DNA of 36,716 nucleotides from Verrucomicrobiota bacterium (GTDB taxonomy: Bacteria > Pseudomonadota > Gammaproteobacteria > Coxiellales > Coxiellaceae), in assembly GCA_013287435.1 (NCBI GenBank), contig JABDDU010000014.1, positions 1 to 36,716 on the forward strand. The letters are read 5' to 3'. Every line of letters begins with the position of its first letter. Position 1 is the first letter of the stretch. Position numbers and translations under genes: made by a program. The notes under the pieces are model-generated. The model made no database searches. It saw only the letters and a list, made by a program, of their open reading frames with translations, and was not told the origin of the DNA. Below, in pieces: positions 1,193 through 3,660 of this stretch.

Positions 1193-2485
1193 ATGCCACG
1201 TATTGACGATTTTACTGTCAACAAAAAGGTTTTTAAGAAAAAAGAATACCGTAGTTGGGACGGTAATTTAATTGAAACCTTGAAAATAAAAAGCGATACA
1301 GAGCTTCCAGTAAAAACATCTGCAGAGTCCGCTGCCGTGATTCCAGTCGTTGAAGAAAAAACCATAACAACATCAGAAGAACCCATTAACCCAATATCAC
1401 AAAGAGTTCAATTAGGGTTCAATAAGGGTTCCACTGTGGTTCAAATAGAGTCCAATAAGGGTTCAAATAGGGTTCAATTAGGGTTCAATAAGGGTTCAAA
1501 TGAGGTTCAATTAGAGTCCAATCAAGGTTCAATTAGGGTTCAAGAAAATAGTGAATTAGGGTTCATCACTGACAGAAATTTAATATATAAAACAATGCAA
1601 AAATTAAGTGGTAATGAAAAAAAGATTTTCTTTTTTTCAATTAATTTATGCGCACAAAAGGGTGGTGTATCAACCGGTGAAATCAATGGAAATGAATTCA
1701 CTAAAATCATCGGAACTACGCGAAACGGCCGAGAAACAGCGTTAAAACGGCTATGCAAACGAGGGTTAATACAACGTGAAAAAATACGTCGTGGTGTTGG
1801 TGGCGCAATCAGTATTATGACGAGTGAATTAATAAAAACAGATGCGTTAAATTATTTAAACACCAACTTAGCTGGAGAAGAATTACTGACTAATTTAGGT
1901 ACAAATAGGGTTCCATTAGAGTTCAACAATCCTCTATATAGTAGTAGTAGTATTATTATAAATAAAAATACTACTACTAACGCGAACCCTAAAAATTTAT
2001 CAGAAGAATGGGCAGCGATTGATTTTTCAGCTTTAGAGCATATTAGTTTTTCAGCAACACAACTTCGACAATTGGTTGATAAAAATATTCCAGACGCAGT
2101 TCAAGAATCCATTAATCATTTTGCTTATGAGCTTGAACATAACCCTGATAAATACAAAGCACCACTGAATGTGTTGATGGGTGTTTTACGAAAAGGAAAC
2201 ACTTGGACCGCCCCAAAAGGATATGAATCGCCAAAAGATAAGGCATTACGTGAATATACCGAAAGAAAAAAAGCCGAAGTAGAAAAACGAAACCAAATGA
2301 TCAGCGATCTTATGGAAGCTGAATTCTCAAATTGGCAGGCCACATTAACCGACGAGGAGACAAAAAATATTATTCCAGATCATGTTCGAAACTCACGTCT
2401 TTTACCCGCCATCACCAGTTCTTTAAAAACCCATTTCAAAGAACATATTTTGATTCCGAGATTGAAGGAAGAGGGGGTTTATTAA
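1193..2485 (+). CDS. Plasmid replication/partition-type DNA-binding protein with internal 11-residue repeats
   Basis: I do not recognise a named family with certainty. The 430-residue protein has a basic N-terminus ([19 protein letters not shown]). Residues 71-124 form an imperfect 11-residue repeat of the type [12 protein letters not shown] region at about 126-210 resembles a winged helix ([20 protein letters not shown], then [10 protein letters not shown]). The C-terminal region is charged and helical, with a [15 protein letters not shown] stretch at 324-338. Its place directly after parA suggests the ParB or replication-initiator partner. An AGGGAG ribosome-binding site precedes the ATG. 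The repeat is encoded by thirteen abutting 11-bp DNA units, so the gene may also carry a DNA site in cis. Function beyond DNA binding is inference. Confidence 0.7.
1405..1547 (+). repeat. Thirteen tandem 11-bp iterons inside the coding sequence
   Basis: Thirteen units of exactly 11 bp lie end to end, with consensus GGTTCAA(T/A)(T/A)AG. They begin at 1405, 1416, 1427, 1438, 1449, 1460, 1471, 1482, 1493, 1504, 1515, 1526 and 1537. The third and thirteenth units are the most diverged. Because 11 is not a multiple of 3, the reading frame returns every 33 bp, giving an 11-residue protein repeat. The spacing is close to one helical turn, so every unit faces the same side of the DNA. ParR centromeres such as R1 parC are also arrays of 11-bp repeats. 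An iteron or centromere role is inferred. Confidence 0.9.
1898..1930 (+). repeat. Second block of three 11-bp iterons
   Basis: Three more abutting units of the same motif lie at 1898-1908 (GGTACAAATAG), 1909-1919 (GGTTCCATTAG) and 1920-1930 (AGTTCAACAAT). They encode another copy of the protein repeat (RVPLEFNN). They sit about 350 bp after the main array in the same gene, immediately before a hairpin. Confidence 0.75.
1942..1979 (+). repeat. 13-bp-arm inverted repeat (hairpin) within the coding sequence
   Basis: A perfect 13-bp inverted repeat (TAGTAGTAGTATT at 1942-1954, AATACTACTACTA at 1967-1979) surrounds a 12-base all-AT loop. It encodes a serine, isoleucine and threonine-rich linker. 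No T-run follows and it is inside an open frame, so a terminator is unlikely. Together with the adjacent iterons it resembles an AT-rich origin or centromere element (inference). Confidence 0.7.
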
Positions 2486-2514: not shown

Positions 2515-3660
2515 ACGGGTAGCGCATTGCGATCCCTTCTAGATTTAGCGCCTAAAAAAGCGAAAAAAATAAATGCTGATGGTAGTGAAGTTGACGTTTT
2601 TTTAGATCAAATACAAGTGGGTGATCTTTTAAAAGTAAGACCCGGTGAAAAAATTCCCATCGATGGAATAATAGTAGAAGGGTAAGCTCTATCGGAATTA
2701 ACGCTTGTGGAGAGGAAGGCTCTGGCGCAACAGCTTTGGCTAGTGCGCGAAACCACGCCTCATTGAAGAAAGAACTCAACATCGAACAAGTTTATGGGTA
2801 ACTTTAGATAAGTTTGAGTAAGTTTGAAGGAGCGGCATAGCACAATCGACGAATCCATGATTACAGGTGAATCCATTCCAGTTGAAAAAACAATCCATGA
2901 TAGGGTGATAGGCAGCACCATTAATTTATCCGGTAGTTTTGTGATGCGTGTTCTGCGTGTTGGCAATGACACACTGCTTTCACAAATTGTTGCAGAAGTA
3001 TCTGAAGCGCAACGTTCACGTGCACCTATTCAAAAATTAGCAGATTCAATCTCCCGTATTTTTATTCCAATTATTCTTGTTATTGCAGTCATTACTTTTT
3101 TGATGTGGAGTATTGTTGGGCCTACGCCTGCCATGGTATACGGTTTAATTTCTGCTGTTTCTGTATTAATTATTGCTTGTCCTTGCGCATTGGGTTTGGC
3201 AACGCCCATGTCAATTACGGTGGGGATAGGGCGTGGCGCACAAGCAGGAATTCTGATTAAAAACGCAGAACATTTAGAACGTTTTGAGAAAGTTAATCTG
3301 CTTATGGTTGACAAAACCGGAACCTTAACGATAGGAAAACCCGTATTAAAATCCATTATTGCTGCGCCAGCATTCCATGAAAATGATATTTTATTATTGG
3401 CTGGCAGTTTAGAAAATAATAGTGAACATCCCCTAGCAAATACTATTATTCGTGCAGCAAAAGAGTGAAATCTTGCATTACTTCCTGTGTCAGACTTTTT
3501 TGCTGATATTGGAAAAGGTGTGCAAGGAATTATAAATAATAAAAAAATAGCGCTAGGCAATGCAACATTATTAAACCCAATGATGGGTGCCTTGGCCATG
3601 AGCTTGAGTTCAATTTCAGTGATTGGAAACGCATTGAGATTACGAAGTGTAAAGTTTTAA
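2515..3660 (+). pseudogene. copA: Degraded copper-type P1B ATPase (CopA remnant)
   Basis: Pieces of a Cu+-exporting P-type ATPase survive in order. The first, about 2515-2682, is the actuator-domain region ([28 protein letters not shown]). After an insertion, 2836-3468 carries ITGES, the CPC metal-site helix (ACPCALGLATP), the phosphorylation motif DKTGT and SEHPLA. A TGA at 3466-3468 interrupts the frame. The same frame continues (DFFADIGKGVQGIINN) to about 3576, then jumps to the normal C-terminal end of the family (MSLSSISVIGNALRLRSVKF), ending at TAA 3658-3660. Missing are the metal-binding N-terminus, the first membrane helices and the GDGxND hinge region. The gene cannot make a working pump. 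Its left edge abuts the parA module, so the two were probably joined by recombination. The 87 bases after it (3661-3747) hold nothing I recognise. Confidence 0.9.
2683..2835 (+). other. Foreign ~150-bp insert splitting the copA remnant
   Basis: ATPase homology stops at IIVEG (2682) and resumes at HSTIDES (2836), which are adjacent in intact family members, so about 153 bp is inserted. The insert contains an open stretch at about 2691-2801 that translates to INACGEEGSGATALASAR and further residues, ending LNIEQVYG then stop. It looks coding, but I do not recognise it. Near the right end the 9-mer TAAGTTTGA occurs twice (2809-2817, 2819-2827). GAAGG flanks both sides and might be a target duplication. 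There are no clear terminal inverted repeats. Confidence 0.55.

Follow-up and report, generated by a model that had tools for sequence, protein, structure and literature searches.

Thirteen abutting repeats of 11 bp lie within the coding sequence of a gene next to parA, and sequence comparison suggests that the DNA-binding protein encoded around them most probably docks on these repeats. We consider it likely that the array consists of iterons for the wHTH domain of this protein, and that the protein, expressed from an operon shared with parA, initiates the replication of a plasmid-type replicon. The stretch of DNA that was analysed, 36,716 nucleotides of contig JABDDU010000014.1, is referred to here as the window.

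Results

The first gene of the module, parA (187–1173, + strand), encodes a Walker-type ParA ATPase with an N-terminal helix-turn-helix (Pfam AAA_31, E=3.5e-37; PHROG 164, ParA-like partition protein, E=1.6e-51). The gene with the repeats (1193–2485, +) starts 19 bp past parA, the order that the original prediction had given, and its 430 codons specify a candidate replication initiator. The AlphaFold2 model of the 430-residue protein contains one wHTH domain (residues 128–225; 1574–1867, +), the putative reader of the iterons, and an all-helical C-terminal domain (residues 271–427; 2003–2473, +), both modelled confidently. Two linkers are predicted to be disordered, linker 1 ahead of the wHTH (residues 30–120, pLDDT < 50; 1280–1552, +) and linker 2 behind it (residues 227–266; 1871–1990, +).

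The protein matches PHROG 428, 'replication initiation protein', weakly (E=0.0012), and Rep3_N (WH1) with E=0.039 and 14.8 bits, under the gathering cut-off of 22.4. With the whole model, the top PDB match in Foldseek is DnaD (9a5c_B, E=7e-4). VIA matched many wHTH folds, the WH1 domain of pPS10 RepA among them (1hkq, Z 8.5). The fold matches of the model also include the centromere-binding wHTH protein TubR, and the viral ones include replication proteins, one of them a GpO N-terminal protein. No PDB structure matches the C-terminal domain alone significantly; DnaD gives a weak match (2i5u, E 4.3, Z 3.3). Judged from the model, the two-domain architecture is most like that of DnaD and of phage replication proteins.

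Direct counting and TRF confirm the 13 abutting units that had been predicted. The stretch 1405–1547 (+), in the coding sequence of linker 1, is made up of exactly 13 11-mers with the consensus GGTTCAATTAG, which is matched at 121 of the 143 bases; unit positions 2, 3, 5, and 7 are invariant in all 13 units. TRF recovers this array 1 as 1406–1543, with period 11, 12.5 copies, and a score of 150. Searching the window for GGTTCAAN4GGTTCAA with up to two mismatches gave 14 matches, compared with 0.43 expected, and none of 100 shuffles reached 14. Two of these matches form a patch at 1898–1926 (+), array 2, which has three units (GGTACAAATAG GGTTCCATTAG AGTTCAA) in the coding sequence of linker 2, a location used by most homologues too. 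Thus, the original inventory was correct for array 1 but missed these three units, as well as the non-coding array on a second contig, C34, described below.

Is the array conserved as DNA or as protein? The lag-11 identity of array 1 is 0.70, while random synonymous recoding of the same peptide gives 0.40 ± 0.04. None of 5000 such recodings attains the observed value, nor do random 11-residue repeats. Since synonymous identity could also be explained by slippage, we place the weight on tests other than recoding. In the window, the GGTTCAA core occurs in every reading frame (5, 4, and 6 times), and so do the repeat cores across all loci (84, 78, and 113). Mismatches in the window array fall at 6 of 91 core positions and at 16 of 52 spacer positions, and third codon positions within the core are no looser than the rest (2 of 31), so codon position does not account for the conservation of the core. 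The original prediction had named as its refutation a comparison in which homologues keep the peptide repeat and scramble the DNA motif; the outcome was the opposite, with relatives of similar wHTH keeping GGTTCAA and altering the encoded peptide. These comparisons indicate that conservation of the array lies in the DNA and not in the peptide.

Tandem slippage can produce arrays of this kind, and the linkers are disordered, which would fit a low-complexity peptide or a neutral tandem expansion whose DNA repeat has no role. We find this hardly credible, since the motif recurs in the second linker and in non-coding DNA, is read in three frames with the core kept and the spacer not, and changes along with the wHTH, as shown below. 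As the sole cause of the array, a protein-level repeat or neutral slippage was rejected by the recoding, non-coding recurrence, three-frame, and core/spacer tests.

The window begins just 186 bp before parA. In the remainder of the 1.38-Mb genome, a GGTTCAA array is found in a single place, the right end of contig C34 (7.4 kb), where 14 exact GGTTCAA cores lie in about 560 bp, in one orientation and with no ORF of at least 70 aa. Because this array matches the one that homologues have upstream of parA, C34 probably precedes the window; a search for an exact overlap of the C34 end with the window start found none. Positions 3406–6416 of C34 (L053) contain a second, divergent parA–rep cassette, with the iteron GCGACACA in the linkers of the gene and again ahead of its parA. 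The presence of this cassette beside the GGTTCAA array probably reflects a two-replicon molecule. Likewise, Rickettsiella massiliensis has two divergent cassettes on a single contig.

Two further features of these contigs were seen. Directly past the rep gene of the window, at 2521–3660, a P-type metal ATPase is found in broken pieces, which suggests a rearrangement or an insertion/deletion scar. Both cassette-bearing contigs also have a long run of surface-polysaccharide-type genes (window 3748–36716 and L053 63–3384), among them nucleotide-sugar and nonulosonic-acid-like enzymes, glycosyltransferases, and an acyltransferase.

Relatives were found by tblastn on complete plasmids of Piscirickettsia, Legionella, Cardinium, Bandiella, and Cysteiniphilum. 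The locus searches used an alignment of the C-terminal domain, the whole-family alignment being too divergent for pattern-based searching, and gave 21 further loci, including Legionella, Rickettsiella, Aquirickettsiella, a Coxiellaceae MAG, alphaproteobacterial MAGs, and a Chlamydiae MAG. One viral contig (L037) also carries a member. Sampling 398 genomes of the phylum at random yielded no further members, so the distribution of the family is patchy, and no match to the C-terminal domain was found among annotated phages.

In nearly all homologues with enough upstream sequence, the gene is preceded by parA. About 30 homologues have motifs of about 11 or 12 bp in both disordered linkers and in the non-coding DNA upstream of parA; the place is equivalent in most of them, and the sequences differ (GGTTCAA, GRTAAC, RGAATCAA, ACAAACT, CGGAACACAA, GGAACAAT, GCGACACAA, AGGGGTC, AGGTACA, and TAGTAGTC). 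Of the 173 short gaps between coding cores, 158 differ from a multiple of 11 by at most 1 bp, and only 73 are multiples of 3. Some Legionella loci have their copies mostly upstream of parA and few inside the gene, which means that the intragenic copies may be auxiliary. The Cardinium locus (L008) has a recognisable array upstream of parA only. The opposite is seen on the Bandiella plasmid (L010), with 20 copies in the gene and none in the 1 kb upstream of parA that was scanned.

These distributions bear on whether the repeats are no more than operators for autorepression or copy control, with the functional origin elsewhere, for example, upstream of parA. The motif does occur there, probably at the promoter of the operon, and the loci with few intragenic copies would be consistent with this role. 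However, at least 13 phased units deep in the gene together with a second patch are more than an operator requires, and the Bandiella plasmid lacks copies in the upstream stretch that was scanned, so we regard an operator function alone as improbable.

A DnaA-box cluster common to the family was not found, and such clusters are rare. The viral contig has seven DnaA boxes (TTATNCACA) in 205 bp just upstream of parA (L037 1889–2093), an origin-like arrangement. Plasmid p5PS2, which bears a replicon of this family, also has numerous phage head and tail genes (L041 10579–24661) and so is a phage-plasmid-like element. Decayed cassettes were also seen, with a broken rep on an 11.7-kb plasmid of P. 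salmonis (L039 4001–4697) and, in the draft of R. massiliensis, a parA with a frameshift (L021, parA region).

For 22 loci, a motif was learnt by EM for each locus from the linker-1 coding DNA only and then used to scan the other regions. Linker 2 contains 56 matches, compared with 3.0 expected (18-fold), and the DNA upstream of parA contains 205, compared with 26.5 expected (7.7-fold). No enrichment was seen in parA (22 vs 21.8 expected), in the wHTH coding region (5 vs 5.5), or in the C-terminal coding region (9 vs 10.4) of these loci. Motifs of other groups were not enriched (A 0.9x, C 0.8x). Because the groups were assigned by eye after viewing the motifs and the wHTH sequences, we use the same-group rate for description only.

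The Mantel tests are independent of these groups. Loci that are closer in wHTH identity have more similar motifs (r=0.54), and the partial correlation of motif with wHTH given the C-terminal domain is 0.48 (p=2e-4), while that with the C-terminal domain given the wHTH is −0.03. Given both the C-terminal domain and ParA (two segments), the wHTH retains a partial correlation of 0.40 (p=3e-4). The ParA core also keeps a partial correlation of 0.22 with the motif (p=0.012), suggesting that ParA travels partly with the cassette. Across the loci compared, the identity of the motif thus appears to track the wHTH and not the C-terminal domain.

Natural exchanges of the cassette show the same pattern. 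The two genes on one contig of R. massiliensis (L020 and L021) have C-terminal domains that are 97% identical and wHTH domains that are 33% identical, and their iterons differ: one has GGTAACGA and the other GGTTCAA, each within the gene and again upstream of parA. Nucleotide homology between them begins at the C-terminal domain, which is exchanged independently of the wHTH and the iterons. The window protein and its congener L011 share 67% identity in the C-terminal domain and 14% in the wHTH, and have no common iteron; conversely, the window, L016, and L021 have the wHTH type and the GGTTCAA iteron in common. Just outside the two differing arrays of R. massiliensis, there is a 144-bp non-coding element that is 92% identical (L020 1431–1574; L021 1453–1596). 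The conservation of the motif as DNA and its co-variation with the wHTH argue for a DNA-level element that is most likely bound by the protein of its own gene, as the original prediction had proposed.

Discussion

What is the function of the array? The annotations of two complete plasmids, p5PS2 and that of L. israelensis, name no initiator, and ten of their unassigned, regulatory, or unclear proteins compared with Pfam gave no Rep family. Plasmids of P. salmonis have been reported to be without an identifiable initiator or iterons, and passive replication was suggested; for pPSLF89-3, the authors report neither a rep gene nor iterons (PMC6963756). We found that RS35225 of pPSLF89-3, which adjoins parA and is annotated as hypothetical, is a member of the window gene family. 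Because these plasmids have no other recognisable Rep and RS35225 is found on pPSLF89-3, we favour an initiator with intragenic iterons. The weak matches to known initiator sequences (for Rep3_N, 14.8 against 22.4 bits) count against this assignment, as do the lack of a significant structural match for the isolated C-terminal domain, the rarity of DnaA-box clusters, and the Legionella and Cardinium loci with few or no recognisable copies inside the gene.

The original prediction had offered a centromere, a copy-control site, or a self-repression site. The wide comparison does not support a centromere or a self-repression site as the main role and favours iterons of an initiator, which may also serve in partition beside ParA. 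If the repeats were a parS/parC-like site and the wHTH protein only the partner of ParA, an analogue of ParB, replication would be driven otherwise. The location of the gene directly after parA with no separate parB annotated beside it, the centromere-like arrays upstream of parA, the similarity of ParA that also follows the motif, and the fold match to TubR would all be consistent with this. Nevertheless, we think it unlikely, since p5PS2 and the L. israelensis plasmid would be left with no recognisable initiator, the two-domain architecture is nearest to DnaD and phage replication proteins, and the PHROG 428 match is to an initiation protein. The co-variation of ParA with the motif does count against a protein that is an initiator only, and so a partition function is possible. 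Tentatively, one protein might be both initiator and ParA partner, with the same 11-bp sites acting as origin, copy-control site, and centromere. Were this the case, replication, segregation, and incompatibility would change together upon exchange of a wHTH–iteron–parA cassette.

For the initiator that we favour, we propose loading of the protein onto the helically phased 11-bp sites, both in the coding segments of the two linkers and in the array upstream of parA. The C-terminal domain would then nucleate melting or recruit the helicase, and the extra sites may serve in autoregulation or handcuffing. The linkers would accept almost any peptide, leaving the DNA sites free to evolve there. The wHTH and its sites could therefore form an exchangeable specificity (incompatibility) cassette on a host-adapted C-terminal domain.

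The gene with its array offers a direct candidate for the replicon that was missing in P. salmonis, and the module also reaches Legionella, Rickettsiella, Coxiellaceae, Midichloriaceae, and Cardinium. As the recognition code would lie inside the gene of each replicon, the family supplies about ten pairs of wHTH and iteron, natural domain swaps included. From sequence, the compatibility of plasmids could become predictable, and the joint change of a DNA-binding domain and its sites becomes testable.

Comparison with known systems

Origins internal to initiator genes have been described as 'uncommon but not exceptional' (PMC3155836). In the RepA_N plasmids (pSK41, pAD1, and the chimera pPR9), the DNA-binding domain and the origin have been exchanged naturally between proteins with CTDs that are >97% identical (PMC5703833), as in the swap between L020 and L021. 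The likeness extends to the wHTH, perhaps to the DnaD-like architecture, and to in-gene origin repeats that encode a linker, which is dispensable in RepA_N; the window arrays also sit in predicted disordered linkers of a rep-type gene, where they may have origin activity. However, hmmscan of nine family members against Pfam gave no match to RepA_N (PF06970) at E<=1. Here the iterons flank the wHTH coding region on both sides and lie upstream of parA, the units are about 11 or 12 bp, and the hosts are Gram-negative intracellular bacteria.

In phage lambda, the origin iterons lie in the middle of the gene of the initiator itself, O (PMC7466680), and co-variation speaks here for a putative reading of the in-gene iterons by the wHTH. 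One of the nine members matches Phage_rep_O (PF04492) weakly (E=0.0016), and the window protein does not match it. Lambdoid phages have 4–6 iterons in one block, whereas up to about 26 units of 11 or 12 bp are found here in two linkers and a non-coding array, and the window gene adjoins parA and not the P helicase-loader gene.

In RepABC plasmid p42d, oriV lies within the initiator gene, near parA-type genes (PMC3155836). However, repC has no iterons, while the window system has extensive iterons and no repB. The Rep_3 plasmids (pPS10, pSC101, and F) have direct-repeat iterons and a WH1 fold like that of the model (1hkq), but Rep3_N is below its cut-off for the window protein, and the model has one wHTH rather than WH1–WH2. 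Furthermore, the Rep_3 iterons are 20–22 bp long and outside the gene, and those described here are about 11 bp and inside it.

The parC/ParR system of plasmid R1 has 11-bp direct repeats beside a partition gene. The parallel that the original prediction had drawn with it holds for the repeat length but is superficial, since the partner in the window is a Walker ParA and not ParM, the repeats are inside the gene, and the motif varies between replicon groups.

By sequence, the window protein reaches no cut-off of the RepA_N, lambda O, or Rep_3 families. Lambda O and RepA_N of pSK41/pPR9 appear to be the closest in logic, as functional parallels. What is new is the family itself, the two-sided intragenic array mirrored by a non-coding array, the phasing of about 11 bp, and the wide spread in intracellular bacteria. 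The module is most likely a plasmid replication system, apparently unrecognised, that is widespread in Legionella, fish pathogens, and symbionts of insects and amoebae.
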